Assembly (NCBI GenBank): GCA_019455325.1
Contig: JACFMQ010000023.1
Location: forward strand, 1-35,927
Source: Rhodocyclaceae bacterium
Lineage (GTDB): Bacteria; Pseudomonadota; Gammaproteobacteria; Burkholderiales; Rhodocyclaceae
Length of the DNA: 35,927 bases
Direction of reading: 5' to 3'
How positions within the stretch are numbered: the stretch's first letter is position 1; every line of letters begins with the position of its first letter. Shown here piece by piece: positions 4,635 through 21,920 of this stretch. Both the position numbers and the translations under genes were made by a program. Below the pieces are notes generated by a model. It was given only the letters and a program-made list of their open reading frames with translations. It ran no database searches and had not been told where the DNA came from.

Positions 4635-5423
4635 ATGGACCAAGCCCCGAACCCTGTCGCCGGCCAGCCGGCGCCGAGCGGCGACGCTGCCACGGCGGCG
4701 GCCGACTGTTTCATCACCGTTCCCGACGTCACCCTGCCCGGCGGCATCGTCGTGCCGAGCTTCCGCGTTGGGCAGTTCGCCTGCAGCAAGGGGGATGACG
4801 GCCGCCTGGCCGTGACCGCCACCGGCGTGCCGTGGGTCAACATCAACTACCACGAGGCGCGCGCCGCCTGCGCGGCGGCCGGCTATGCGCAGGTCACTGA
4901 GCGCCAGTGGCTGGCCGTCGCCATCGACGCCGCGCGGCAGGACTGCAACTGGACGGGCGGCCGGGTCGGCGCCGGCAAGCTGTTCCGCGGCCTGCGCAAG
5001 GGCAGCGTGAGCGGCCCGCAGCCGGGCGACTACACCCCCGCGGACGAGAAAGAACGCCGCTGGCTGACGCTCTCGAACGGCGAGCGCATCTGCGACCTCA
5101 ACGGCAACGTCTGGCAGTGGGTCTTCGACGACCTGCAGGGCGACGAGAACGGCCTGACGACCATCATCGAGGCCGATTCGCCGAGCCTGACCGCGACCCC
5201 CTACCCGAGCATGAAGAAGGGGATGGGCTGGCGGCCGGAGGAGCGGTGTGACTGGTCCGGCTATGCGCTCTTCCGGGGCGGCTGCTGGCTCTCGGGGCGG
5301 TGTGCCGGCGCGTTCTACCTCGTCGGCGGCTGGCCCGACCTCCGCTACGACCTCGTCGCCGTCCGCTGCACCCAACCCATCGGGGTCTCTGATCCCCGGT
5401 CCCTGGTCGCGGCGCAGCCGTGA
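4635..5423 (+). CDS. DGR variable protein 1 (C-type lectin/FGE-sulfatase fold)
   Basis: This 262-aa target protein starts at ATG 4635 with AAGGAG five bases upstream. The fold is the formylglycine-generating-enzyme-like C-type lectin type: landmarks are PWVNINYHEA, LSNGERICDLNGNVWQW and a final RGGCW...VAVRC. VR1 covers residues about 207-245, the ligand-binding face in this family. Of the varied codons, Y, L, L, R, Y and L now replace TR-encoded residues that are mostly Asn, Tyr and Ile. No signal peptide or membrane segment is seen. After the VR an 18-residue tail runs through the downstream hairpin to its stop. It is a tandem paralogue of the next gene but lacks that protein's N-terminal module. 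Confidence 0.92.
   Translation: MDQAPNPVAGQPAPSGDAATAAADCFITVPDVTLPGGIVVPSFRVGQFACSKGDDGRLAVTATGVPWVNINYHEARAACAAAGYAQVTERQWLAVAIDAARQDCNWTGGRVGAGKLFRGLRKGSVSGPQPGDYTPADEKERRWLTLSNGERICDLNGNVWQWVFDDLQGDENGLTTIIEADSPSLTATPYPSMKKGMGWRPEERCDWSGYALFRGGCWLSGRCAGAFYLVGGWPDLRYDLVAVRCTQPIGVSDPRSLVAAQP
5254..5368 (+). repeat. DGR variable repeat VR1
   Basis: These 115 bp align without gaps to the TR at 7278-7392. Of 21 TR adenines, 16 differ here; unchanged As correspond to TR 7287, 7341, 7362, 7371 and 7374. Of 94 non-A positions only two differ (TR C7302 is G, TR T7313 is C). The last 15 bases, free of A, are identical and are the likely IMH. Confidence 0.95.
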
Positions 5424-5425
5424 CC
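5405..5425 (+). other. Hairpin downstream of VR1
   Basis: GGTC-G-CGGC pairs with GCCG-T-GACC as a 9-bp stem (one G-T wobble) around a 3-nt loop, 37 nt after VR1. It spans the stop codon of variable protein 1. A matching hairpin follows VR2. In the Bordetella phage DGR a comparable DNA hairpin or cruciform near VR promotes retrohoming. Confidence 0.7.
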
Positions 5426-5442
5426 GCCACAGGAGCGAAACC

Positions 5443-6354
5443 ATGAACATGCGAGAACAGGGCCTCATCGAGAAATTCCACGTCCGCCGCGCCGACGGCC
5501 GCGACGCCCCCGGCGAAAAGCACCACGGCGCCGAATACTTCGTCCTGGACATGACCGACGACCCGCACGCCATTCCGGCGCTGCTCGGCTACGCCGGCTC
5601 GTGCGGGCGCGACTATCCGCTGCTCGCCGCCGACCTGCGCGCGCGCGTCGCCGGCATGGTCACCGCCGCCAGCGAGTTCGTGACGATCCCGGAAACCACG
5701 CTGCCGGATGGCACCGTCGTCCCGGCGTTCCTCGCCGGAAAGTACCTGGCCTCGCGCGGCCCGGGCGACATCCCGCTGTCCGTCGCCGACGCGGCACCGT
5801 GGGTCAACATCAGCTACCACGAAGCGTGCGAGGCCGCGGCGCGCGCCGGCCTCGACATGCAGCGCGAGACGCAGGCACTGGCGATCGCCTGGGACGTCAG
5901 CCAGCAGCCCGAGAACTGGAGCGGCGGCGCCGTCGGCGAGGGCGTGCTGCGCATGGGGCTGCACAAGGGCACCGTGCACGCAGCGCAGCCGGGCAGCTAC
6001 GAGTCGCCGGACCCCGAGGAAAACCGCTGGTTCGTCCTCTCGAACGGCGAGCGCATCTGCGATGTGGCCGGCAACGCCTTCTCGTGGATCCACGACGACG
6101 TGCAGGGTGACGAGAACGGCTTGGTCGCCAAGGGCATCGCCGCCAACTCGATCTCGCTGACGACCGCGCCCTACGGCATCTGCGAGAAGGGCATGGGCTG
6201 GCGGCCGGACGGTGCACGCAACTGGTCCGGCCGTGCGCTCGTCCGGGGCGGCTGCTGGCACTCGGAGCGGCTTGCCGGCGCGTTCAACCTCGACTTCGAC
6301 TGGCCCGGCCGCCGCTGCGACATCGTCGCCGTCCGCTGCACCAAGAGTCTCTGA
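5443..6354 (+). CDS. DGR variable protein 2 (N-terminal phage module plus C-type lectin/FGE fold)
   Basis: This 303-aa protein starts at ATG 5443 with AGGAG seven bases upstream. Residues 1-75 form an extra module (KFHVRRADGRDAPGEKHHG, EYFVLDMTDDPHAI) that recurs, as far as I recall, at the start of other phage proteins; its function is unknown. From about residue 80 it parallels variable protein 1: PWVNISYHEA, LSNGERICDVAGNAFSW and a terminal RGGCW...VAVRC. VR2 covers residues about 261-299, ending five residues before the stop. There is no signal peptide. Variable residues include R, V, H, L, F, G, R and I at TR Asn, Tyr or Ile codons. It is likely a binding or display protein rather than an enzyme. 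Confidence 0.92.
   Translation: MNMREQGLIEKFHVRRADGRDAPGEKHHGAEYFVLDMTDDPHAIPALLGYAGSCGRDYPLLAADLRARVAGMVTAASEFVTIPETTLPDGTVVPAFLAGKYLASRGPGDIPLSVADAAPWVNISYHEACEAAARAGLDMQRETQALAIAWDVSQQPENWSGGAVGEGVLRMGLHKGTVHAAQPGSYESPDPEENRWFVLSNGERICDVAGNAFSWIHDDVQGDENGLVAKGIAANSISLTTAPYGICEKGMGWRPDGARNWSGRALVRGGCWHSERLAGAFNLDFDWPGRRCDIVAVRCTKSL
6224..6338 (+). repeat. DGR variable repeat VR2
   Basis: These 115 bp align without gaps to the TR. Thirteen of 21 TR adenines are changed; the unchanged ones correspond to TR 7314, 7320, 7340, 7341, 7347, 7353, 7374 and 7376. The only non-A differences are the same two found in VR1 (TR 7302 and 7313). Changes include A to C, G and T, as expected of error-prone copying at A. 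Confidence 0.95.
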
Positions 6355-6364
6355 TCCCTGGTCC

Positions 6365-6390
6365 CGGGTCGCGGCGCCAGCCGTGACCCG
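6365..6390 (+). other. Hairpin downstream of VR2
   Basis: An 11-bp stem (CGGGTC-G-CGGC with GCCG-T-GACCCG, one G-T wobble) closes a GCCA tetraloop, 27 nt after VR2 and just past the stop codon of variable protein 2. It is the longer counterpart of the hairpin after VR1 and shares its core sequence. It could also act in mRNA stability. Confidence 0.75.
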
Positions 6391-6405
6391 CCCACCGAGA
6401 ACGAC

Positions 6406-7254
6406 ATGAGCCACCACCAGACCCCCACCACCGAAGAGCAGACCGACCTCGCGATCAAAAGCTATCGCGGGATCGAACTCGGCCTCGGCCAGGCCGACCC
6501 GGTCGCCGCCATCGCCGCCAAGCTCGAAGCCGCGCACCCCGGACACCTGATCCTCGTGCAGGCCGGCAAGTTCCTGCACGGGTACGACCGGACGGCCTAC
6601 GCCCTCGCCACGCTCAAGGGCTACAAGCTCAAGCTGCTCGGCCCCGCCGAGGCGCCGCACCTGCGCATCGGGTTCCCGGCCGGCAACTTCAAGCGCCGGC
6701 TCTGGTCGATGGTCGCCGACTTCGGCATCCCCTATGCCGTCGCCCTCGGCACGCAGGCCGCCGGCCACACCGTCTACGTCTCCAGCCAGCCGACCGGCAA
6801 CGGCCAGGTGCTCGCCGCGGTCAGCGAGGAGATCGTCGCGCAGGTGATCGAGGATCTGCGCCAGCGCGGCGAGGTGAACAAGGCCGCCGCGCGCGAGCTG
6901 CTCACCCATCCGGACACCGCCGGCTTCAAGCTCAAGAGCCAGGCGCAGGAACTCGACCTGCAGTTGCTGCAGGACATCGTCAAGATGCCGCGCGAGCTGC
7001 GCACGACCTACGGCGAGACCCTGCGCGCGTGCATGGCACGCATCGTCCGCAGCGTCATGGCCTACGGCCTGGCAGAGAACAAGCCGGCGCTGCTGTGCGA
7101 CCTCTCCGCCGACATCGACTGCCTCAAGCACTACCTCGCCCAGGCCCCGCGGCTGAGCCGGCTCAAGCTCGCCTTCGAGCATCGCGCCGGCTCAGCCGTC
7201 GAGCTTGGCCGACTCGCGGGCGGCCTGCTGCGCGCCCATCGGGAGGCGCCATGA
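6406..7254 (+). CDS. DGR accessory protein: MutS-like domain fused to Avd-like helical domain
   Basis: This 282-aa protein lies between the variable genes and the TR, the normal place for a DGR accessory gene. Residues about 44-115 read like the N-terminal mismatch-recognition domain of MutS: HPGHLILVQAGKFLHGYDRT matches the MutS GDFYE...DA segment, and the following FGIPYAVALGT matches its VA..EQ end. Residues about 165-275 are a helical segment (LDLQLLQDIVKMPRELRTTY) resembling Avd, the four-helix-bundle protein that binds the RT and TR RNA. MutS-like (MSL) accessory proteins are known from DGR surveys. It carries no ATPase part of MutS. The Avd half is recognised from pattern only. The gene ends in ATGA overlapping a frame that runs through the TR. 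Confidence 0.75.
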   Translation: MSHHQTPTTEEQTDLAIKSYRGIELGLGQADPVAAIAAKLEAAHPGHLILVQAGKFLHGYDRTAYALATLKGYKLKLLGPAEAPHLRIGFPAGNFKRRLWSMVADFGIPYAVALGTQAAGHTVYVSSQPTGNGQVLAAVSEEIVAQVIEDLRQRGEVNKAAARELLTHPDTAGFKLKSQAQELDLQLLQDIVKMPRELRTTYGETLRACMARIVRSVMAYGLAENKPALLCDLSADIDCLKHYLAQAPRLSRLKLAFEHRAGSAVELGRLAGGLLRAHREAP

Positions 7255-7277
7255 TCGACGGGCGGAATCCTCTGAAA

Positions 7278-7392
7278 GGTCCGGCAATGCGCTCATCCGG
7301 GCCGGCTACTGGTACTCGGAGCGGAATGCCGGCGCGTTCAACCTCGACAACGACTGGCCCGACAACCGCTACGACAACGTCGCCGTCCGCTG
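7278..7392 (+). repeat. DGR template repeat (TR)
   Basis: This 115-bp repeat is gap-free to both VRs, with 21 adenines and AAC/AAT-rich codons in the VR reading frame (GNAL, YWYSERNAGAF, DNDWPDNRYDN). AAC codons are favoured in DGR templates because mutation at the two As reaches many residues without creating stops. The A-free stretch 7378-7392 is the IMH-like end; the base after it is A here but C in both VRs. The region 7255-7511 contains no other gene and is expected to be transcribed as TR RNA. Confidence 0.95.
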
Positions 7393-7414
7393 ACCCAAGG
7401 ACACAGCACCCAGG

Positions 7415-7431
7415 CGCCGGCACCGCCGGCG
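7415..7431 (+). other. Hairpin 3' of the TR
   Basis: CGCCGGC and GCCGGCG form a perfect 7-bp stem with a 3-nt loop, 23 nt after the TR. No T-run follows, so it is more likely a structural element of TR RNA, where the RT or the Avd-like protein may dock, than a terminator. Confidence 0.45.
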
Positions 7432-7511
7432 AAGGGACACTTCTTGGTCGAGGATTTCGCGGGGAGGACTCCCCGAAAGTACGGCAGCTCGCCCAACCGG
7501 GAACCGCCGCG

Positions 7512-8348
7512 GTGGCTACGGCTGCCGCGGCGGGACGCGGCCGAAAGTCCGTCACGAGACCGATACTGCGGTGGCATGGCGGAAAGTGGAAGCTCGCCGA
7601 CTGGATCATCGCCAATCTGCCGCCGCACCGCGTCTATGTTGAGCCATTCGGCGGCGCCGCCAGCGTGCTACTCAAAAAGCCACGCAGCTACGCCGAGGTA
7701 TACAACGACCTCGATGGCGAGGTCGTCAACCTCTTCCGAGTGGTCCGAGACCACGGCGAGGAGCTGCGTCGAGCCTTGGAGTTGACGCCGTTCGCGCGCG
7801 ACGAATTTGCCGAGAGCTACCGCAAAGCGAAGGATCCGCTTGAGCAGGCACGGCGCACCGTCGCGCGCGCCTTCATGGGGTTCGGCTCGAACGCGCATAA
7901 CAAAGCGACCGGCTTCCGGGCGAACAGCAACCGCAGTGGCACAACGCCGGCGCGTGACTGGCGCAACTACCCCGATGCCCTCGGCGCAATCATCGACCGC
8001 CTGCAGGGTGTCGTCATCGAGAATCGCGATGCCATCGACGTGGTGCAGGCGCACGACGGCGATGAAACCGTCCATTACGTCGATCCACCCTACGTTTCGG
8101 CAACGCGCGGCAAGGGCGGCGACTACCGGCACGAAATGACGGATGCTGACCACGAGCAGCTCGCGTTGGCGCTCCACGCCCTGCGCGGCGCGGTTGTTCT
8201 CAGTGGCTACCGGAGCGCGCTCTACGACGACCTCTACAGCAACTGGCGGCGCATCGAGCGGCACGCTCATGCAGACGGTGCCCGCAGCCGCATCGAGTGC
8301 CTTTGGCTGTCGCCAAGCTGCCCGGCGCGAGGATTGTTCGATGCCTGA
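7512..8348 (+). CDS. DNA adenine methylase (Dam family), inside the DGR
   Basis: This protein of about 278 aa is a D12-class N6-adenine methyltransferase. The AdoMet-binding start ILRWHGGKWKLADWI, then VEPFGGAAS, VYNDLDGEVVNLFR and the catalytic DPPY at about 191-194 are all present. The start is uncertain: the same frame is open from ATG 7251, through the TR. I chose GTG 7512, close to the family's normal N-terminus and preceded by GGGAA. The family methylates adenine (GATC in Dam itself), often to evade host restriction. Eight bases overlap the RT gene. It is paralogous to the methylase at 12467. Confidence 0.85.
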   Translation: MATAAAAGRGRKSVTRPILRWHGGKWKLADWIIANLPPHRVYVEPFGGAASVLLKKPRSYAEVYNDLDGEVVNLFRVVRDHGEELRRALELTPFARDEFAESYRKAKDPLEQARRTVARAFMGFGSNAHNKATGFRANSNRSGTTPARDWRNYPDALGAIIDRLQGVVIENRDAIDVVQAHDGDETVHYVDPPYVSATRGKGGDYRHEMTDADHEQLALALHALRGAVVLSGYRSALYDDLYSNWRRIERHAHADGARSRIECLWLSPSCPARGLFDA

Positions 8349-9327
8349 CTTCCACAGGATCACCACCCTGACCAACCTCCACACCTGCTGGCACTACGCC
8401 AGCCAGGCCAAGGGCCACCAACCGCGCGTGCAGCGTTTCGACGCCGACGCCCTGAGCTACCTCGTCACCATCCAGCAGCGCCTGCGCGACCGCATCTACG
8501 CCTTCGGCCCCTACCGCAGCTTCACCCTGCGCGAGAAGAAATTCCGCCACGTGGTCGACGCGCCGATGAAGGATCGCGTCGTGCACTGGATGATCTACCG
8601 GCACCTGCTGCCGATCTGGATGCCTCGATTCATCCACGACACCTACGGCAACCTGCCGGGGCGCGGATCGCACGCCGCCGTCCGCCGGCTCGCCGAGTTC
8701 GTTCGCCGGCCGGCGAACACCTGGGTGCTGCAGCTCGACATCTCGAAATACTTCCACGCCGCGCCGCACGACAAGATCAAGGACTGCGCGCTGCGCCACG
8801 TCGGCGACGAAGACCTCCGCCGGCTGATCGTCAGGCTGATCGACTCCTACCGCACCGACGCCCGCTACGACGACCTGTTCCCCGCCGACAGCGCCTACCG
8901 CCGCACCGCGGCGAAGGGCATGCCGATCGGCAACCAGCCCAGCCAGCTCTTCGCGAACCTCTGCCTCGACGAGTTCGACCACTGGATGAAGGAAGTTCTG
9001 CGCGTGCGCTGCTACATCCGCTATGTCGATGACCTGGTCGTGCTCGGCGGCAGCGCCGAAGAGCTACGCGCGCTGGCCGCGCAGATCGTCGAGCGCCTGG
9101 CCGCCGACGGCCTGACCATCCACCCGCGCAAGGTGCGGATCGCACCGACGCGCGCCGGCGTGCCGTTCCTCGGCTACGTCGTCTGGCCCGGCCACGTCTC
9201 GGCCGGGCGATACCTGCGCCGGCGCTACCACTACCGGCTGCGCGAGCACGAGCGCGACGGCCGCGATCGAACCGAGGCGCTGCACTCCTACCGCGCGGCG
9301 CTGGCCCACACCGGCCCCACCCGATGA
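8341..9327 (+). CDS. DGR reverse transcriptase
   Basis: This 328-aa RT starts at ATG 8341, inside the last codons of the Dam gene. The palm motifs are intact: LQLDISKYF (first catalytic Asp at 133), IGNQPSQ at 196-202 in place of the QGxxxSP of group II and retron RTs, and YVDD at 228-231. The [LIV]GxxxSQ form of motif 4 is diagnostic of DGR RTs and is linked to low fidelity at template adenines. Motif HVVDAPMKDRVVHW and the C-terminal basic thumb are also typical. There is no maturase or endonuclease domain. It acts on TR RNA with the accessory protein upstream. Confidence 0.95.
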   Translation: MPDFHRITTLTNLHTCWHYASQAKGHQPRVQRFDADALSYLVTIQQRLRDRIYAFGPYRSFTLREKKFRHVVDAPMKDRVVHWMIYRHLLPIWMPRFIHDTYGNLPGRGSHAAVRRLAEFVRRPANTWVLQLDISKYFHAAPHDKIKDCALRHVGDEDLRRLIVRLIDSYRTDARYDDLFPADSAYRRTAAKGMPIGNQPSQLFANLCLDEFDHWMKEVLRVRCYIRYVDDLVVLGGSAEELRALAAQIVERLAADGLTIHPRKVRIAPTRAGVPFLGYVVWPGHVSAGRYLRRRYHYRLREHERDGRDRTEALHSYRAALAHTGPTR

Positions 9328-9548: not shown

Positions 9549-10042
9549 AGATGGCGAAAGCAAGCCAGGCCGACCTGGACATGGCCAACGAACTCGCCTG
9601 GCTTCTGGAGGCGCTGGAGAAGCGCTGCCTTCCCGAGGTGCTGAGCGAACAGTTCGGTGACGATGAGTTCGACATCGACAACCCCGAGCACGTGCGCGAG
9701 GCCATGGGCCTGATCCTGCGCACGTTGAGAAAAGGGTCGCTCTTCCGCGTCACGTTCGGAATGCTGGTGCTGCTCGATTCGGACAACGAGATTGTCGACC
9801 CGGACGCGCGGACGCTGGAAGTGCATCCGAAGTTCGAGCGTTGCGAGCAGGCGCGGCAGCATCTCGAAGCCGTCGTGCGCCGCCTCGTCGACATCATGGA
9901 GCGGAGCGACCTGGATAAGAGCGTCTCTGCAGGCCACCCGCTGCCTACCCTGAAGGAATGGAACGAAGCGATGCACGAGGCCCGCGCGGTGCTGCTCGGA
10001 AAGACGGGCGAGCCGATGTTCCTCGGGGAGTTCCGTCCGTGA
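9545..10042 (+). CDS. Hypothetical phage protein
   Basis: This 165-aa soluble, acidic, largely helical protein starts at ATG 9545 by ATGA overlap, and its TGA overlaps the GTG of the cytosine methyltransferase. There is a short hydrophobic strand region (LFRVTFGMLVLLDS) but no membrane segment or catalytic motif. Family not recognised. Its place between the RT and the methyltransferase suggests the same early transcript. Confidence 0.6.
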   Translation: MKMAKASQADLDMANELAWLLEALEKRCLPEVLSEQFGDDEFDIDNPEHVREAMGLILRTLRKGSLFRVTFGMLVLLDSDNEIVDPDARTLEVHPKFERCEQARQHLEAVVRRLVDIMERSDLDKSVSAGHPLPTLKEWNEAMHEARAVLLGKTGEPMFLGEFRP

Positions 10043-11847
10043 CCACCCGCGACCGCTTCACCGCCGCCCCCGTCGACGTCCGCGAGATCCGCCACTTCCA
10101 CCTCTTCGGCGCCATCGGCGGCGGCGCGAGCGGCTTCAACCGCGGCAAGGCGCGCGTCGGCAACATGGTCGGCAAGTTCCGCTGCATCGGCAGCGTCGAT
10201 GTCGACGCCGCGGCGAACCGCGACTTCCTCCGTCTGGTCGGCGTGCCGGCGACGACGCTCGACCTCTTCGACCGCGAGCAGTACATCGCCTTCAACGGCC
10301 GTGAGCCGCCGGACGGCTGGCGCCCGGCGACCCCGGCCGACATCCGCCGCGCCGCCGGCGGCGAATTCCCGCACATCGTATTCCTCTCGGCGCCGTGCAA
10401 GGGGTTCTCCGGCCTGCTGCCCGAGGGCAAGAGCAAGACCGCCAAGTACCAGGCGCTGAACCGCCTCACGCTGCGCGGCGTCTGGCTGATGCTCGAAGCC
10501 TTCAAGGACGAGCCGCCCGAGCTGGTCGTCTTCGAGAACGTGCCGCGCATCGCCACGCGCGGCCGGCACCTGCTCGACCAGATCGTCGGCCTGCTGCGCG
10601 CCTACGGCTACGCCGTCGCCGAGACGACGCACGACTGCGGCGAGCTCGGCGCGCTGGCACAGTCGCGCAAGCGGTTCCTGCTGGTCGCGCGGCACATCGC
10701 CAAGGTGCCGCCCTTCCTCTACGAACCGGGGAAGAAGCGGCTGCAGGCGGTCGGCACCGTGCTCGATCGGATGCCGCTGCCCGGCGATCCGGCCGGCGGC
10801 CCGATGCACCGCATCCCGCAGTTGCAGTGGAAAACGTGGGTGCGGCTCGCCTTCGTCGAGGCCGGGAGCGACTGGCGTAGCCTGAACCGGCTGGCGGTCA
10901 AGGATGGGTTCCTGCGGGACTTCCTGATCGTGCCGGAAATGTTCCGCGGCGCGCTCGGCGTGCGCCGATGGGACGAATCGACAGGCGCGGTCGCCGGCGA
11001 AACGCTGCCGATGAACGGCGCCTTCTCGATCGCCGACCCGCGCCCACCATCCGGCGCGCTGGAATACTCGCAGTACGGGGTGATGCGCATGACCGACACG
11101 GCGGGCGCCGTGATCAACGTCAAGTCGCCGGGGCAAGGGACGTACAGCGTAGCGGACCCGCGCACCGGCGTGAAGCACAACAACTGCTTCCGCGTGGTGC
11201 GCTTCGACCAGACGGCCGGTACGGTCACTGGCGGCACCGGGCCGAGCGCCGGCGGCCAAGGCATCGCAGATCCGCGGCCTCCGCATGGTCCGCTGTTCAG
11301 CAAGTACGCTGTCACGCCATGGGCTGCCCGTACCGGCACCGTCATCGGCGGCGACGACTCCGGCGCCTACGCTGTGGCGGACCCCCGCCCCAACGGCGTC
11401 CCGCAGCAGGGCGACCACTACCTGACCGGCGGCCACTACGGCGTCGTCGGCTGGGAGGACACCAGCGGCGCCGTCTCCTCGGCCGCCTGCCACGACAACG
11501 GCCGCTGGTCCGTCGCCGACCCGCGCATGCCGGAGGCGACCGACAAGCTCGTCGCCGTCATCCGCGCCCTCGACGGCACCTGGCACCGCCCGTTCACGAC
11601 CCTCGAACTCGCCGCCCTGCAGTCGCTCGTCGAGCCGGAAGAGCAGCTCGAACTGGACGGCCTTTCGGACAGTGCCTGGCGCGAGCGCATCGGCAACGCC
11701 GTCCCGCCGGCGGCCGCCGAAGCCATCGCCGGCGTGATGGGCACCACGCTCCTGCTCGCTTGGTCCGGCGAGACCTTCCTGCTGTCGTCCACGCCGATCT
11801 GGGTACGGCCGGTGGCGGTGGCGCTGTCGGTGGGAGGGGCAAAATGA
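10039..11847 (+). CDS. DNA cytosine C5-methyltransferase with internal repeats
   Basis: This 602-aa Dcm/HhaI-type methylase starts at GTG 10039 by GTGA overlap. Motifs in order: an AdoMet loop at HLFGAIGGGASGF, the catalytic SAPC with Cys120 (motif IV), FENV at about 165-168 (motif VI), QSRKRF (motif VIII) and the C-terminal IGNAVPP (motif X). Between motifs VIII and X, about residues 310-495, lies an insert of five imperfect repeats of 37-47 residues, each ending in [IV]ADPR, in the place of the target-recognition domain. Phage methylases of this class protect DNA against restriction. It is longer than the usual 350-450 aa because of the repeats. Confidence 0.9.
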   Translation: MTTRDRFTAAPVDVREIRHFHLFGAIGGGASGFNRGKARVGNMVGKFRCIGSVDVDAAANRDFLRLVGVPATTLDLFDREQYIAFNGREPPDGWRPATPADIRRAAGGEFPHIVFLSAPCKGFSGLLPEGKSKTAKYQALNRLTLRGVWLMLEAFKDEPPELVVFENVPRIATRGRHLLDQIVGLLRAYGYAVAETTHDCGELGALAQSRKRFLLVARHIAKVPPFLYEPGKKRLQAVGTVLDRMPLPGDPAGGPMHRIPQLQWKTWVRLAFVEAGSDWRSLNRLAVKDGFLRDFLIVPEMFRGALGVRRWDESTGAVAGETLPMNGAFSIADPRPPSGALEYSQYGVMRMTDTAGAVINVKSPGQGTYSVADPRTGVKHNNCFRVVRFDQTAGTVTGGTGPSAGGQGIADPRPPHGPLFSKYAVTPWAARTGTVIGGDDSGAYAVADPRPNGVPQQGDHYLTGGHYGVVGWEDTSGAVSSAACHDNGRWSVADPRMPEATDKLVAVIRALDGTWHRPFTTLELAALQSLVEPEEQLELDGLSDSAWRERIGNAVPPAAAEAIAGVMGTTLLLAWSGETFLLSSTPIWVRPVAVALSVGGAK

Positions 11848-12470
11848 AAGAGTTTCCGATCTTGTTCAGTGCGCCGATGGTGCGCGCGATCCTCAACAGT
11901 CAGAAGACGCAGACGCGGCGGGTAGTGAAGCCGAAGCGCGGGGGGCGCATCACAGGTGTAGCCGGGCCTGGGATGGCGATGGAATACATCGGCATCGACA
12001 ACGACGGACGCGCGTGCTTTGAGACGCTGCAATGCCCCTATGGACAGCCCGGTGGCCGGCTGTGGGTGCGGGAAACGTGGCAGCACTCGAACTTTCCTCT
12101 CGGCCCTTACGATGACCGCTGCGACATCTTCTACCGCGCCGACTACCTGGACGATCCGCACGGCCCGGACGGCGAGCTATCGCCTGAAGGGAAGTACCGT
12201 ACCTGGCGCCCCAGCATCCACATGCCGAGGGCGGCCAGCCGCATCCTGCTGGAGATCACCGCCGTTCGCGTTGAGCAGCTACTGGACATCACGACGGTTG
12301 ACGCGATAGCTGAAGGCGTGATGGAAACAGCTCCATATCTTAAAGGCTGCCCGGCATGCAGCGAATACAGGTACGCATACGAAGACCTGTGGAAATCCAC
12401 CTACGGCCCCGGCTCATGGGACGCGAATCCGTGGGTCTGGGTCGTCGAATTCAAGCGGGAGCAACCATGA
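11844..12470 (+). CDS. ASCH/PUA-like phage protein
   Basis: This 208-aa protein starts at ATG 11844 by ATGA overlap. It has the familiar phage pattern: FSAPMVRAILNSQKTQTRR at the start, then GGRLWVRETW, WRPSIHMPRAASRILLEI and a final WVWVVEFKR. These fit an ASCH/PUA-like nucleic-acid-binding fold; the family is widespread in prophages and often mislabelled a morphogenetic protein. Its true substrate is unknown, and RNA or modified-DNA binding is inferred from the fold. It sits between two methyltransferase genes with overlaps on both sides. Confidence 0.7.
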   Translation: MKEFPILFSAPMVRAILNSQKTQTRRVVKPKRGGRITGVAGPGMAMEYIGIDNDGRACFETLQCPYGQPGGRLWVRETWQHSNFPLGPYDDRCDIFYRADYLDDPHGPDGELSPEGKYRTWRPSIHMPRAASRILLEITAVRVEQLLDITTVDAIAEGVMETAPYLKGCPACSEYRYAYEDLWKSTYGPGSWDANPWVWVVEFKREQP

Positions 12471-13330
12471 CCCCCACCACCCCCGTCATCCGCTACCACG
12501 GCGGCAAGTTCCGCCTGGCGCCGTGGGTCATGCGCCACTTCCCGCCGCACCGCATCTACGTCGAGCCGTTCGGCGGCGCCGCCGGCGTGCTGATCCAGAA
12601 GCCGCGCGCCTTCTCCGAGGTCTACAACGACCTCGACGACGAGATGACGAACCTCTTTCGCGTCATGCAGGACCCCGACCAGCGCGGCCGTCTCGTCGAG
12701 CTGCTTGTCTTCACCCCCTACGCCCGCGCCGAGTTCGAGCGGGCATGGGAGCCGGCCGAAGAGCCGGTCGAGCGCGCCCGCCGCCTGGTCATCCGCGCCC
12801 AGATGGGCTTTGGTTCGGCCGGCGCCACCAAGGGCACCACCGGATTCCGGATTGACGCCAAGCGGGAATACGAGACCGCGCAGCACTCCTGGGCGAAATA
12901 TCCGGACAACCTGGCCGCCGTCGGCCGGCGCCTCGCCGGCGTGCTGATCGAGAACTGCCCGGCGATCAAGATCCTGCGCAACCACGACACGCCGGACACC
13001 CTCTTCTACGTCGACCCGCCCTACGTGCACGAGACGCGCGTCCGCATCACCAGCAAGGACTCGCCGCGCGGCTATCGGCACGAGATGGACCTCGACGACC
13101 ACGCCGCGCTGCTGGCGGCGCTGCAGGCCGTGCAGGGCATGGTCGTCCTTTCCGGCTACCCGCACCCGCTCTACGACGACGCGCTGCGCGGATGGGCGCG
13201 CCGCACCACCAAGGCGAGGATTAGTGGCGCCAAAGGGACCACGCTGCGCGACGAGGTTCTCTGGCTCAACCCGGCCTGCTGCGCCGCGCTGCAGGGCGGC
13301 GGGCTGTTTTCGATCACGGAACCGACATGA
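12467..13330 (+). CDS. DNA adenine methylase (Dam family), second copy
   Basis: This 287-aa N6-adenine methyltransferase starts at ATG 12467 by ATGA overlap. Motifs: VIRYHGGKFRLAPW, VEPFGGAAG, VYNDLDDEMTNLFR and catalytic DPPY at 183-186. It is clearly paralogous to the methylase at 7512; the same blocks appear in the same order, but this copy carries a longer loop after DPPY (VHETRVRITSKD) and a different C-terminus. A different target sequence is possible. Together with the C5-methylase it suggests strong anti-restriction modification of phage DNA. Confidence 0.9.
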   Translation: MTPTTPVIRYHGGKFRLAPWVMRHFPPHRIYVEPFGGAAGVLIQKPRAFSEVYNDLDDEMTNLFRVMQDPDQRGRLVELLVFTPYARAEFERAWEPAEEPVERARRLVIRAQMGFGSAGATKGTTGFRIDAKREYETAQHSWAKYPDNLAAVGRRLAGVLIENCPAIKILRNHDTPDTLFYVDPPYVHETRVRITSKDSPRGYRHEMDLDDHAALLAALQAVQGMVVLSGYPHPLYDDALRGWARRTTKARISGAKGTTLRDEVLWLNPACCAALQGGGLFSITEPT

Positions 13331-17339: not shown

Positions 17340-18356
17340 GTGAGCTTCCCCGTTCTCGTCGAGGACTTCCTCTCGTTCATGCACCACAACCGCGGCCGGT
17401 CGGAACGGCTGGCGGTGGTGTATCGGCTGGCGCTGTCCCGCCTGGGCGAGTTCATGGCGGATCTCGGGCGCGACCCGATGACGGCGACGCATGAGGATCT
17501 GGTGGCCTTCACCGGCCCGTGGCTGTTCCGCAAGGGATTGGTCGACCCGGTTTCCCGTAGAACGCACGTCTCCGCGGTGCGCGGCTTCTTCAAGTGGGCG
17601 ACCTGGCGCGGCCACGTGCGCGACAACGCCGCCGCCGGCGTGCCGCAGCCGAAGGTGGGCCGGAAAATTCCCCGCATGATGACGCTGGCCGACCTCGAAA
17701 AGATCATGTGGCAGCCGGATTTCGGCACGCTCGCCGGCGTGCGCGACGCAGCGATGATCGCTGTGCTTGGCGGCTGCGGCCTGCGCGCCTCTGGGCTCGC
17801 AGGACTGAACGAGTCGAACCTGGTGCGCGACGTGATCGACGCCCAGCCGCGCCTGTTCGTGAAGGTTCTGGAGAAAGGCGGCCGCGAACGAGTGGTGCCG
17901 GTGCCCCAGCAGGCCGAGCTGCTGATCCGCCTCTACCTCGACCACCCCGACCTGGCAGCCGTCGACCGGCTGCTGCCGGATGGCGACAAGGTGCTCTTCG
18001 TCTCGCTGATGCGCCGCGACATCCCGTTGTGCGACTACCGGGGCGAGAAGCGGCGCTTCCGGCGCGAGCAGGTGCATGCGCTCGTGCGCCGCCACGGCAC
18101 GCGCGCCGGTGTCGATCCGTCGCTGCTCCACCCGCATGCGATGCGACACCTGTTCGGCACCGAGCTGGCCGAAGACGACGTGCCGACCGTCACCGCGCAG
18201 AACCTGCTCGGCCACGCCGACCCGAAGTCGACCGAGGTCTATCAGCACCTGGCCCGCCGAAAGTTGATGCGCGTGGCCGACAAATCCAACCCGCTGGCGA
18301 AGATCAAGACGCCGGTGACCGCTCTGCTGAACCAGATCAAGAGACCAGCGCCGTGA
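17340..18356 (+). CDS. Tyrosine recombinase/integrase (XerC/D-like)
   Basis: This 338-aa protein starts at GTG 17340 with GAGAGG nine bases upstream. An N-terminal core-binding domain (about 1-105) is followed by the catalytic domain: Arg149 (GLRASGL), Lys in LEKGGRERVVPVP, His266-x-x-Arg269 (HAMRHLF), His in LLGHADPKST and Tyr301 (EVYQHL). All pentad residues are present. It is full length, unlike the short recombinase at 2591. The repeats upstream could be its arm sites, but the attachment junction lies next to the serine recombinase instead, so this enzyme may act as a resolvase. Confidence 0.88.
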   Translation: MSFPVLVEDFLSFMHHNRGRSERLAVVYRLALSRLGEFMADLGRDPMTATHEDLVAFTGPWLFRKGLVDPVSRRTHVSAVRGFFKWATWRGHVRDNAAAGVPQPKVGRKIPRMMTLADLEKIMWQPDFGTLAGVRDAAMIAVLGGCGLRASGLAGLNESNLVRDVIDAQPRLFVKVLEKGGRERVVPVPQQAELLIRLYLDHPDLAAVDRLLPDGDKVLFVSLMRRDIPLCDYRGEKRRFRREQVHALVRRHGTRAGVDPSLLHPHAMRHLFGTELAEDDVPTVTAQNLLGHADPKSTEVYQHLARRKLMRVADKSNPLAKIKTPVTALLNQIKRPAP

Positions 18357-18582: not shown

Positions 18583-19080
18583 ATGAGCGAAAGACGAAGT
18601 GGCGCGGCGGGAATCGCACAGGGCGAGCTGTTCGGCGAGGGGGTGGGGGCTCGGCAGGAAGGGTCGCCCCCCCCTCCCATGGGGGGGGAGTACCTGGAGA
18701 ATTCCACCCCGCCGAACTTTTCAAAAACTGCGCCGGCCGAAAAAAAACGGCGCGACCCCCGTTTCGACGAGCTGGAGCGCATTGGCCTGCCGGCCGCGTG
18801 GTTGCGAGTCGCCGAGCGGATCGGATTCGATGCGTGGCTGGAGGTCTGGCGGATGTTGTCCGAGGACGAGCGGATTCGCCACGACGGCGGCGCGCGCATG
18901 CCGAAGCTGCGCTGCTACTCGGCCTATGTCCGGTATCAGCGCAATCGGTACATCGTCTCGCTGGCGCAGCACGGCATTCCCATTCGGATGATCCAGGAGT
19001 TCGTGTGGAATGGCTTTCGTGAACGGCTGGACTTCACTCACGTCGGAAAAATTGCGAAAAGGGCTACAGTACGAAAATGA
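18583..19080 (+). CDS. Hypothetical protein coupled to the serine recombinase, with C8/G8 tracts
   Basis: This 165-aa protein starts at ATG 18583, and its stop overlaps the recombinase start (ATGA). Residues about 28-33 are encoded by eight C, TCCCAT and eight G (18667-18688), which can slip during replication or fold back. Residues 60-150 are helical and basic (RCYSAYVRYQRNRYIVSLAQ, GIPIRMIQEFVW), suggestive of a helix-turn-helix. Its position directly before the integrase makes a DNA-binding helper or directionality factor possible, but nothing in the sequence proves it. Family not recognised. Confidence 0.6.
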   Translation: MSERRSGAAGIAQGELFGEGVGARQEGSPPPPMGGEYLENSTPPNFSKTAPAEKKRRDPRFDELERIGLPAAWLRVAERIGFDAWLEVWRMLSEDERIRHDGGARMPKLRCYSAYVRYQRNRYIVSLAQHGIPIRMIQEFVWNGFRERLDFTHVGKIAKRATVRK

Positions 19081-20621
19081 AGGCGAGAGAGAAGACGGCG
19101 GTCATTTATGCTCGTGTGAGCACGGCACGGCAGGCGGACGACGGGCTGCCGGTGGATAGCCAGATCGATCAATGCCGGGCGAAGGCGGTGGCGCTGCAGG
19201 CGCGCGTCGTGGAGGTGTTCCGGGATGACGGGATTTCCGGGCGAACCAGCAACCGCCCCGGATTCCAGGCCGCCCTGGATTTCTGTGACGACCACCCCGT
19301 GGATTACTTCGTGTGCTGGTCATCCAGCCGCTTCGCGCGCAATCACATCGATGCGGCGCTGAACAAGCGCATCCTCGAAAAATCGGGAAGCAAGCTGGTC
19401 TTCGTCTCGCAGGATTTCGGTGAGTCGGACGAGGCCTGGATGATCGAGAGCATCGTCGCGATCATGGACGAGCAGTATTCCCGCGCGATCGCCAAGGACA
19501 CGCGCCGCTCGATGGCGAAAAACGCCGCCGACGGCTTCTGGAACGGCGGCAATCTGCCGTTCGGCTACCAGGCGGTATCGATGGGCAAGCGCCGCCGGCT
19601 CGCGCCGGTGGAGGACGAGGCGCTGGTGGTGCGCACGATCTTCCGCTGGACGATCGAAGGCGCTGGTCAGAAGGAAATCGCGATGCGGTTGAACGACACC
19701 GGCGTCAGCCGACGCGGCAAGCGTTGGAACAAGGCGGCCGTGGCCTCGGTGCTACGCTCGCGCGCGGTGCTCGGGCAGATCGTGTTCAACGACCGTGGCC
19801 GGAATATCGTCACCCAGGCACACGAGGCGATCATCAGCGAGGAGGTGTGGGCGATGGCACAGGACAAGAAGGAACAGCGCGTGCCGCGCAACGTCGGCGG
19901 CCGTCCGCGCAGCGAGGCGGCATTCTCCGGGCTGCTGGTCTGTGGCAAATGTGGCGAGGCGATGTATACGGAAACCGCGACGGGGCGCGGAGGCGTGCGC
20001 TACCACTACTACAACTGCCGGTCCTTCCTGAAGGGAATGGGGTGCGAGAGCCGACGTCTCCCGGTCGAGAAGTTGGACGCTCACCTCCTCGAAGAGATCG
20101 CCGAGAAAATTTTTACCGCCGACAACATCGCAGGCATTCTGCTCGACATCAAGCGGCAATCCGGAGAATGGGCGTGCGATAAGCAATTACGGATCGACGG
20201 CATGGCGAAGGAACTATCGGACGTCGATCGCCGCCTGCGCAAAATGTACGAGTCAGTCGAGGCCGGCGTCGGGCTCAACCTGGCCGACGTGGCGCCGCGG
20301 CTGCGGGAGCTTCGGGCAAGGTCGGAAGCCCTGAAAATAGAAATCGAGAGACTCGATGCTGACCCCGGTCCGCAGATCGTTCTTCGACCAGATGAAACGA
20401 CGACGGCTGCAAGAATATTCCGCGATATCTTGGTTTCCGCAGAAAACACGTCAAAAGTGCGTGAATTCCTCGGCCATGTGGTCAGCCGAATCGTTATTGG
20501 AGATGGGAAAGCAATGCTGGAGTATCTACCGGAGCGCATTGTGAATGCTCGGATGAGCGATTCGCAATGCGTGGTAAGGTGGCTCCCCGACCTGGGCTCG
20601 AACCAGGGACCTACGGATTAA
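19077..20621 (+). CDS. Large serine recombinase (site-specific integrase)
   Basis: This 514-aa protein starts at ATG 19077, overlapping the preceding stop. The resolvase-type catalytic domain is at about 6-150 with nucleophile Ser15 (YARVSTARQ); a recombinase DNA-binding domain follows (NLPFGYQAV); then a zinc ribbon (CGKCGEAMYTE...YNC...GC, about 290-330); and a C-terminal coiled coil. Layout and length are those of phage serine integrases. The last 13 residues (WLPDLGSNQGPTD) are translated from the 3' half of the tRNA-Asn gene on the other strand. Located at the phage edge, this is the best candidate for the active integrase. A separate directionality factor would be needed for excision. 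Confidence 0.92.
   Translation: MKAREKTAVIYARVSTARQADDGLPVDSQIDQCRAKAVALQARVVEVFRDDGISGRTSNRPGFQAALDFCDDHPVDYFVCWSSSRFARNHIDAALNKRILEKSGSKLVFVSQDFGESDEAWMIESIVAIMDEQYSRAIAKDTRRSMAKNAADGFWNGGNLPFGYQAVSMGKRRRLAPVEDEALVVRTIFRWTIEGAGQKEIAMRLNDTGVSRRGKRWNKAAVASVLRSRAVLGQIVFNDRGRNIVTQAHEAIISEEVWAMAQDKKEQRVPRNVGGRPRSEAAFSGLLVCGKCGEAMYTETATGRGGVRYHYYNCRSFLKGMGCESRRLPVEKLDAHLLEEIAEKIFTADNIAGILLDIKRQSGEWACDKQLRIDGMAKELSDVDRRLRKMYESVEAGVGLNLADVAPRLRELRARSEALKIEIERLDADPGPQIVLRPDETTTAARIFRDILVSAENTSKVREFLGHVVSRIVIGDGKAMLEYLPERIVNARMSDSQCVVRWLPDLGSNQGPTD
20580..20621. other. Probable right attachment junction in the tRNA-Asn 3' end
   Basis: Phage coding sequence (the serine recombinase) ends inside the tRNA-Asn 3' part, and only host genes lie beyond. 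The crossover core should lie at or near this overlap, with its partner copy at the left prophage end outside the window. The exact core cannot be set from one end. Confidence 0.6.
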
Positions 20622-20697: not shown

Positions 20698-20797
20698 CTT
20701 TTTTGACGAGAAACAGGCGAAAATCCCGCCCCCGGAAAACCGCCCCGGAACTTTTCCGCCTTTTGATCCGCCTCACAGCTTACGCGGCCCCCTTGGC

Positions 20798-20803
20798 TAT
20801 AAT
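20798..20803 (+). promoter_or_regulatory. Candidate -10 of moaA
   Basis: A perfect TATAAT lies 46 nt before the moaA start codon. No good -35 is seen at 17 nt, so the promoter may depend on an activator or be weak. Confidence 0.4.
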
Positions 20804-20849
20804 CGCCGCACCGGCCAGTACCGAAACCGCCACCCCGAGCCTCGCATCC

Positions 20850-21920
20850 ATGCGCAACGAATCCCTGAATCCGGAAGTGCTCCCGCCCGCCGCCGCGGGG
20901 CCGACCACGACGCGGGCGAGTTCGCGCCACGCCGCCGGCACGCTGATCGACAAGTACGGGCGGCACATCACCTACATCCGCCTGTCGATCACCGACCGCT
21001 GCGATTTCCGCTGCACCTACTGCATGGCCGAGGAGATGACCTTCCTGCCGCGCGACCAGGTGCTGTCGCTGGAGGAATGCCTGCGCGTCGTGCGCACCTT
21101 CGTCGGCCTCGGCGTGACCAAGGTGCGCATCACCGGCGGCGAGCCGCTGGTGCGCAAGAACGTGCTCTGGCTGCTGGAACGCATCGCCGCGCTCGACGGA
21201 CTGAAGGATCTGGTGCTGACGACCAACGGCTCGCAGCTCGATCGCTACGCCGCCGATCTGAAGCAGGCCGGCGTCAAGCGCATCAACGTCAGCCTGGACA
21301 CCCTCAGGCCCGAGCGCTTCAAGGCGATCACCCGCATCGGCGACCTCGACAAGGTGCTGCGCGGCATCGACGCCGCCGGCGCCGCCGGCTTCACGCGCAC
21401 CAAGCTGAACACGGTGATGATGCGCGGCGTGAACGACGACGAGTTCGTCGATCTCGTCCGCTACGCCATGGCGCACGACCTGAACGTGTCGTTCATCGAG
21501 GAGATGCCGCTCGGCGACGTCGGCCACGGCCGCAGCAACACCTATTACTCCACCGACGAGGGCCTCGCCCTGCTCTCGCCGCATTTCGGCCTGGTGCCGA
21601 CGGTCGAGAACACCGGCGGGCCGGCGCGCTACTGGCGCATCCCCGGCAGCGAGACGCGCGTCGGCTTCATCTCGCCGCACAGCCACAACTTCTGCGACAG
21701 CTGCAACCGGGTGCGCGTCACCGCCCAGGGCGAACTCTATCCCTGCCTCGGACAGAACGACGCGATGAGCCTGATGCCGCTGCTGCGGGAAGGCGACGAC
21801 GACGCGCCGCTGCGCGCGGCGATCGTGCGCGCGATGGGCATCAAGCCGAAGGAGCACAACTTCACGGAACAACTGGACGCGCCGCGGGTGGTCCGCTTCA
21901 TGTCGATGACCGGCGGCTGA
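20850..21920 (+). CDS. moaA: GTP 3',8-cyclase MoaA
   Basis: This 356-aa radical SAM enzyme makes the first molybdenum cofactor intermediate, converting GTP to 3',8-cyclo-GTP, in the cytoplasm. The N-terminal cluster motif is CDFRCTYC in DRCDFRCTYCMAE, the AdoMet motif is ITGGEPL, and the C-terminal cluster binds through FCDSCNRVRV...YPC. The protein ends in the conserved Gly-Gly (SMTGG) needed for catalysis. I chose ATG 20850; the frame is open further upstream, but that part crosses the TATAAT box. It is the first host gene after the prophage. Other moa genes are not in the window. Confidence 0.95.
   Translation: MRNESLNPEVLPPAAAGPTTTRASSRHAAGTLIDKYGRHITYIRLSITDRCDFRCTYCMAEEMTFLPRDQVLSLEECLRVVRTFVGLGVTKVRITGGEPLVRKNVLWLLERIAALDGLKDLVLTTNGSQLDRYAADLKQAGVKRINVSLDTLRPERFKAITRIGDLDKVLRGIDAAGAAGFTRTKLNTVMMRGVNDDEFVDLVRYAMAHDLNVSFIEEMPLGDVGHGRSNTYYSTDEGLALLSPHFGLVPTVENTGGPARYWRIPGSETRVGFISPHSHNFCDSCNRVRVTAQGELYPCLGQNDAMSLMPLLREGDDDAPLRAAIVRAMGIKPKEHNFTEQLDAPRVVRFMSMTGG

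Follow-up and report, generated by a model that had tools for sequence, protein, structure and literature searches.

A diversity-generating retroelement in a Rhodocyclaceae prophage with a conserved reading frame through its template repeat and an adjoining structured RNA

Background

How a diversity-generating retroelement (DGR) balances making its reverse transcriptase (RT) against using its template repeat (TR) is, to our knowledge, an open question. It is raised by an element on contig JACFMQ010000023.1 of a Rhodocyclaceae bacterium (assembly GCA_019455325.1), in which a reading frame runs through the TR. All coordinates refer to the window, that is, the whole 35,927-nt stretch analysed (positions 1-35,927, forward strand). 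A preliminary description, made from the sequence, had presented the element as a complete prophage DGR with one TR and two tandem targets. We consider it likely that it is a BPP-1-type DGR with a MutS-Avd fusion protein, a covarying RNA and a translated leader through the TR, and that it is dormant in this genome. The parts central to this reading are:

6406-7254, + strand: accessory protein, MutS domain I-like plus Avd (assigned with bAvd, MutS_I and Foldseek, below)
7251-8348, + strand: leader open reading frame (ORF), through the TR and the RNA into a D12 methyltransferase (translation; D12 at residues 108-336)
7278-7392, + strand: TR, with 21 A and 94 non-A sites (alignment with the variable repeats, VRs)
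7393-7541, + strand: conserved structured RNA of 149 nt, directly 3' of the TR (covariation; model R1, 134 bits; single-sequence fold)
8341-9327, + strand: RT (PF00078 (RVT_1), E 7.8e-23; phrog_1423, E 9.5e-93), of the DGR type with its domain intact

A reading frame open through the template repeat and the RNA

In the window the ATG of the leader overlaps the stop codon of avd (ATGA). The frame that it opens was followed in two sets of loci, the first of 24 loci, window included, and the second of 59 non-redundant loci out of 67 scored and 68 found. The leader frame is open at 24/24 loci of the first set, where the other two frames contain 53 and 38 stops and are never open. It is likewise open at 59/59 loci of the second set, with no stop at all, against 141 and 97 stops in the other two frames, each of which is open once; dinucleotide shuffles gave an expectation of 9.5 open loci out of 59. 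The ATGA at the avd stop is present at 52 of the 59. Where no insert lies between RNA and RT (48 loci), the leader frame continues into the RT and is in phase in every case (48/48), over seven distinct distances (152-173 nt) from the start of the RNA to residue 4 of the RT. Between the end of the TR and RT residue 6, no ATG, GTG or TTG occurs at 22 of these 48 loci, and no ATG at 36. The frame in which the leader reads the TR differs from that used by the targets, judging from the coordinates of the first target gene and the leader.

The remaining 11 of the 59 loci carry an insert between the RNA and the RT. The leader frame ends 0-3 nt beyond the RT start at nine of these 11 (7 nt in the window), continues through the RT at L080 and stops within the RT at L137. 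Ten insert proteins were scanned, the window's included. Four had a methyltransferase domain (D12 in the window and L089, N6_N4 in L093, Dam in L128), three were PAPS reductases (L078, L087 and L127) and three were without assignment (L075, L081 and L106). The insert of the window is a D12 N6-adenine DNA methyltransferase between TR and RT, and the RT there has its own ATG, which lies upstream of and overlaps the methyltransferase stop, with the RT frame unbroken. No ATG, GTG or TTG occurs within 40 codons past the leader in the window, L075, L089 or L127. A relative of the methyltransferase at L013 has a Met four residues ahead of the residue aligned to window base 7563, and the window has no start codon at that place. 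That the methyltransferase might be a fixed part of this DGR was ruled out by the 48 insert-free loci. Downstream of the RT lie two further DNA methyltransferase genes, one for a C5-cytosine enzyme and one for a second D12 enzyme (9958-11847 and 12356-13330).

A conserved structured RNA 3' of the template repeat

The single-sequence fold of the window RNA had a z score of -2.9, and 1 of 200 shuffles was as good. Of 15 viral relatives that have a TR, 14 show the conserved stretch abutting it, and the other, L009, ends at its TR. In an alignment of 23 sequences, 97.6% of the base pairs at 33 paired positions were standard and changes on both sides were found at 18 of the 33; the covariation score was 0.362, compared with 0.188+-0.010 for shuffled and at most 0.105 for slid alignments. 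Model R1 located the RNA upstream of the RT in 68/68 RT loci, one copy being truncated by a contig end. A scan of 399 genomes of the order with the same model gave four weak matches beyond the element's own genome, and none of these four short loci had an RT match. In the BPP-1 locus (L053) model R1 found nothing at E <=10, a search that distant homology could escape, and no match below E 2.2 in five other DGR loci; homology to the BPP-1 spacer RNA was not found in this way. A comparison with Rfam returned two matches, both far under the cut-offs.

A MutS-like domain fused to Avd

The accessory protein comprises an N-terminal MutS domain I-like part (about residues 29-125) and an Avd part (about residues 141-280), the split at about residue 130 having been read from secondary structure, as Foldseek gave no ranges. 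The bAvd family was matched in 15/15 accessory sequences, the window protein scoring 19.6 bits against a Pfam cut-off of 40, and phrog_3206 Avd matched the C-terminal part at E 9.9e-6. Pfam MutS_I was weakly matched in 7/15 (best E 0.023), and the accessory profile matched the host MutS at E 5e-5, a value for one target. With an AlphaFold model of mean pLDDT 70.8 as query, Foldseek placed MutS chains at the top (probability 1.00, best E 5.9e-4, 1nne) and, at lower ranks, 8ub7_E (a DGR ribonucleoprotein chain, TMt 0.81), 8ub8_C and S23-family bundles; we take 8ub7_E and 8ub8_C to be Avd chains. An Avd helical-bundle domain and a MutS domain I fold were thus both recovered. Searches with the protein against the phages collection (tblastn) gave no match, and a search of solved structures by sequence gave no relevant one.

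MutS domain I carries a Phe-X-Glu motif. When the GDFYELF of the host MutS is aligned with the GKFLHGY of the accessory protein, the Phe is retained and the Glu is replaced by His, so that the motif is absent; F56 and H58 are invariant in 24 sequences. By these comparisons and the structure model, the partner of the RT is a fusion of a MutS domain I-like part with Avd, so that a fold which binds mismatches is coupled to a machine for mutagenesis. Wu et al. (NAR, 2018) reportedly described new DGR accessory genes, possibly including a MutS-like one, and we do not claim the fusion as unpublished. A look through the literature on MutS with Avd or DGRs, mostly titles and few passages, turned up nothing resembling it, and a search of Roux 2021 (PMC8144416) for the terms avd, accessory, methyltransferase and MutS gave none of them.

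Adenine-specific change in two target genes

The TR serves two adjacent variable genes, as had been proposed. The relevant features are:

4635-5423, + strand: target gene T1, 262 aa, FGE/C-type-lectin-like (Pfam FGE-sulfatase, E 6.3e-5; phrog_2889, phrog_9572)
5254-5368, + strand: VR1, in T1, differing from the TR at 16/21 A sites and 2/94 other sites
5443-6354, + strand: target gene T2, 303 aa, a short phage domain followed by an FGE/C-type-lectin-like domain (phrog_9572; AlphaFold, Foldseek)
6224-6338, + strand: VR2, in T2, differing from the TR at 13/21 A sites and 2/94 other sites
7302, + strand: TR base C, which is G in the four VRs of this genome and in the TRs of 15/15 relatives
7313, + strand: TR base T, which is C in the four VRs of this genome

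Both VRs align to the TR without gaps, and all of the counts first reported hold. The specificity of the change for adenines is far beyond chance, and the element, having a TR/VR pair that differs at TR adenines, is a real DGR. Compared with each other without gaps, VR1 and VR2 differ at 16 of the 21 A sites and at 0/94 other sites, while the 115 nt upstream of each are 57% identical. We read this pattern as the signature of A-specific mutagenic retrohoming that acted separately in each target, in agreement with the earlier claim that each VR had been diversified on its own. At non-A sites both VRs depart from the TR identically, by 7302 C>G and 7313 T>C.

TRs and VRs were also compared across 59 loci, window included, of which 55 have a VR. 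Among their 80 VRs, 65 show no non-A difference from the TR, 12 show one and three show two. At L111 one VR equals the TR throughout, its 28 A sites included, and is either an unmutated copy or a second TR. At least two VRs occur at 24 of the 55 loci, a count that is a lower bound, the loci being short, and two targets are found in 271 of 948 DGRs generally, according to passages of PMC6642488. Since two targets per TR are thus ordinary both in this lineage and in DGRs at large, they are not notable in themselves.

The assignment of both targets to the C-type-lectin/FGE type was borne out. T1 scored 23.2 bits against Pfam FGE-sulfatase, narrowly below the cut-off of 23.3. T2 had no Pfam match; its AlphaFold model, with low pLDDT over the VR, was matched by Foldseek to FGE and to the DGR variable protein TaqVP (5vf4) with a TM score of only about 0.4. 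The two targets are 51% identical to each other when aligned. A stretch of T2, residues 5-73, has further matches, in short phage proteins (about 50% identity) and at L031:11209-11415, about 3 kb downstream of the RT there. Upstream of the targets at L033, L024, L031, L026 and L034, 10 neighbouring proteins were scanned; four were without assignment and six were recombination, single-strand-binding, nucleotide-metabolism or methyltransferase proteins. Because none of these 10 is a tail protein, the targets may not be tail fibres.

A second prophage and the state of the element

Two further VRs, C3a and C3b, lie in the same genome in a second prophage on contig C3 (L006). All four VRs share the two bases at which the TR now differs, which rules out errors of the RT as the source of the two non-A differences. 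Since the four VRs, and at 7302 also the TRs of all 15 relatives, disagree with the TR, the last rewriting appears to predate these changes in it. The two differences are probably changes in the TR, with no VR rewritten since in this genome, and among the 55 loci with a VR only the window has two non-A differences common to all of its VRs.

The C3 copy of T1 contains 735 nt identical to the window, VR1 included. Beyond it, a junction fuses T2 at about codon 21 to the RT at about codon 309, with a 12-nt microhomology on its two sides:

5493-5504, + strand: 12-nt microhomology in T2, left side of the C3 junction
9255-9266, + strand: the same 12 nt in the RT, right side of the C3 junction

Neither the TR, the RNA, the accessory gene nor most of the RT was found on C3. 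FGE-type targets with only the last 20-67 or so RT codons remaining were seen on C3 and also at L022 (6156-6356) and L068 (12210-12284), and the RT remnant begins at nearly the same place, about codon 304-309, on C3 and at L068. L069 and L070 each have a target, and the 10 kb that follow gave no match to the RT.

VR C3a shows 0/94 non-A differences from VR1 and from VR2, and differs from them at 13 and 15 of the 21 A sites; the 115 nt upstream of C3a are 56% and 45% identical to the corresponding flanks. C3a thus goes back to the TR sequence that also gave VR1 and VR2, and one TR sequence has written at least three different VRs, in T1, in T2 and in a target of the second prophage. That the window DGR rewrote targets of the second prophage in trans is possible, though somewhat less likely than not. 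The flanking stretches of the C3 prophage are 81-86% identical to the window, and in three pairs of relatives with 80-82% RT identity the TRs differ at 2, 5 and 7 sites not involving A; C3 also yielded neither a TR nor the RNA, which points the same way. On the other hand, a former TR of C3 itself may have written C3a, or the cores may have been shared by recombination, the 735-nt identical tract reflecting exchange or a recent common origin. If trans-writing did occur, this twin prophage, its targets kept and its TR and most of its RT lost, would be a natural case of one phage's retroelement diversifying another's genes.

The same observations could mean that the whole cassette is a decaying relic, whose TR has drifted, whose RNA and RT have been parted by an inserted gene and whose twin has lost its core. 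The two private TR substitutions and the loci that kept targets with only an RT tail (C3, L022 and L068) are in keeping with decay, which we nevertheless hold to be possible but rather unlikely, as the RT, accessory protein and RNA of the window are intact and conserved. An insert does not stop rewriting, because the VRs of other insert-bearing members (L075, L080, L081, L087, L089, L093, L106, L127, L128 and L137) have 0 or 1 non-A differences.

It is unlikely that the element is a plain two-target DGR that is actively diversifying, with nothing further of note. Every part is present and the counts were correct, and so far the preliminary description stands; the independent A-site patterns show targets that have been diversified. 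Recent activity is another matter: the two non-A bases common to VR1, VR2 and both C3 VRs weigh against it, the window being alone among the 55 loci in having two such differences (six have one), and VR1 is unchanged within the tract shared with the second prophage. Taken as a full account, the plain DGR does not survive the leader frame and the fusion. The preliminary description had overlooked that the VRs share their non-A bases, that MutS-like and Avd parts are fused, that a methyltransferase gene separates TR and RT, that a structured RNA follows the TR and a coding frame crosses it, and that C3 carries two more VRs in a twin prophage without the TR and most of the RT.

Is the template repeat translated?

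Several points weigh against a translated leader and a dormant element as we propose them. Over 29 independent pairs the synonymous ratio was 1.06 (0.91-1.23) for the leader frame, compared with 1.14 and 0.97 for the other two, so that no selection on the leader at the peptide level was seen in these pairs, and a synonymous excess over all pairs (1.16, compared with 1.00 and 1.03) was not confirmed by them. The two sets of loci share members. The ATGA is missing from the avd stop at 7 of the 59 loci, one of these being off the contig, and only 91% of the base pairs aligned across the 59 loci keep the phase, a shortfall for which compensating or misplaced gaps may account. Six of the 10 insert proteins have at least one ATG, GTG or TTG in the 40 codons past the leader, and in the window an in-frame GTG at 7512, within the RNA, could be the start of the methyltransferase. 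Dormancy is read from one genome and two substitutions, and six other loci have one non-A difference in all of their VRs, five of them having a single VR. That translation competes with template use is something that we infer. Because the synonymous-site test was null in independent pairs, we claim a conserved frame and not a functional peptide; the frame is conserved, while the leader peptide itself may be without function.

It could be argued from that null result that the frame is open merely from GC-richness and structure, with the RT starting internally or at a non-AUG codon and the TR untranslated, and BPP-1, phiARM81mr and Lagaffe are indeed also open through the TR with an ATG just ahead of the RT. 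We consider this very unlikely, given the excess of open frames over the shuffled expectation, the many stops in the other two frames, the phase kept over seven lengths, the 22 loci with no candidate start downstream of the TR, and the inserts, which sit in the leader frame too.

If the leader is translated, ribosomes ending avd would restart at the overlapping ATG and read the TR and RNA into a leader, some 95 residues long, joined to the RT or to an inserted protein; in the window it would be joined to the adenine DNA methyltransferase, with the RT restarting at its own ATG. The same transcript would become the template once RT and Avd bind at the RNA, and passage of ribosomes would compete with template use, making RT and using the TR being alternative fates of one RNA. 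With more doubt than confidence, we propose that one transcript is both template and messenger for the RT or a fused DNA-modifying protein, that binding of RT and MutS-Avd to the RNA stops the ribosome and so forms a self-limiting switch, and that the slot behind the RNA takes up new leader-fused genes, often for DNA methyltransferases. Since template, structured RNA and coding sequence are one stretch, open in all 59 loci, the balance between RT production and TR use becomes testable by simple reporters.

That the fused adenine methyltransferase acts in adenine mutagenesis or target choice is most improbable, for the N6-adenine or N6/N4-type enzymes, of three families, that make up four of the 10 scanned inserts are set against three PAPS reductases, three unassigned proteins, 48 loci with no insert, and methyltransferase genes elsewhere near the cassette.

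Distribution and prophage setting

The element, a prophage DGR of the BPP-1 kind, belongs to a lineage of phage DGRs that was met here both in viral contigs and in records whose names are those of beta- and gammaproteobacteria. With the accessory protein as query, 16 viral and 12 genome loci were found, the latter named Aromatoleum, Thauera, Pseudothauera, Duganella, Gallionella, Solimicrobium, Paracandidimonas and others; the RT alignment as query gave 68 viral loci, partly the same ones. Among 297 genomes of its own family the accessory protein is full-length only in its own genome and two others, with the Avd part in two more. The RT matched 142 phage records by tblastn, BPP-1 brt included. 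Elsewhere in the element's own genome (contig C31, 284531-285325) an open frame of 502 residues holds another reverse transcriptase, with 34% identity to that of the DGR, and at L058 (reversed) a TR-like repeat lies downstream of the RT.

The first description's complete prophage DGR has the full set of DGR parts. Of the prophage itself the contig seems to carry no more than a portion: none of the window ORFs scanned was found to be a structural phage gene, and a host-type gene (moaA-like radical SAM) is present at 20703-21920. Next to that gene, at the prophage end, are a phage integrase of the tyrosine type and an integrase/DNA-invertase-like recombinase (17340-18356 and 19077-20621).

Comparison with known systems

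The BPP-1 DGR (L053) has the same order of target, Avd, TR, spacer RNA and RT, the same A-specific change, and at the same place a spacer RNA that recruits the RT-Avd complex, according to passages of PMC12875486. It differs in having one annotated VR, a plain Avd and a brt gene with its own ATG, and its RT is 30.4% identical. DGRs of gut phages with one TR and two C-type-lectin-type targets resemble the window element in that arrangement; their targets differ in topology, whereas T1 and T2 are related to each other.

Outside the lineage, 12 phage loci were compared, including two BPP-1-type loci that share one layout. Five of the 12 had an RT frame open through the TR (BPP-1, BbrP_003, phiARM81mr, ACA1 and Faecalibacterium phage Lagaffe), with an ATG between TR and RT in all but ACA1. 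In Aeromonas phage phiWae15 a separate annotated ORF (L149:2220-2495) spans the TR and spacer and ends just before the RT, and the corresponding stretch of phiARM81mr is annotated as part of the RT.

That a TR can be translated is an idea already in print. TRs overlapping annotated RT ORFs appear as group 3 of DiGReF 2012 in the part of PMC3521204 consulted, which concerns the layout of annotated parts, with no translation test, conserved RNA or fused inserts. In the literature consulted, we found no lineage-wide comparative support, co-located conserved RNA or leader-fused inserts. A close likeness is to the DGR of Pseudoalteromonas phages ACA1 and ACA2, in which an ATG overlaps the avd stop and the RT frame is open through the TR, and whose authors describe the TR as translated into an N-terminal extension of the RT (passages of PMC10612066). 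Their avd is a separate gene of the usual size, their RT is 29.5% identical, and RNA structure, inserts and a MutS-like domain go unmentioned in those passages. The insert-free relatives share the ACA-type arrangement, with the RT frame open through the TR from a start at the avd stop, while in the window the leader frame runs into the methyltransferase and the RT has its own ATG. The window element is a little-described variant of DGR with a template that is probably translated.

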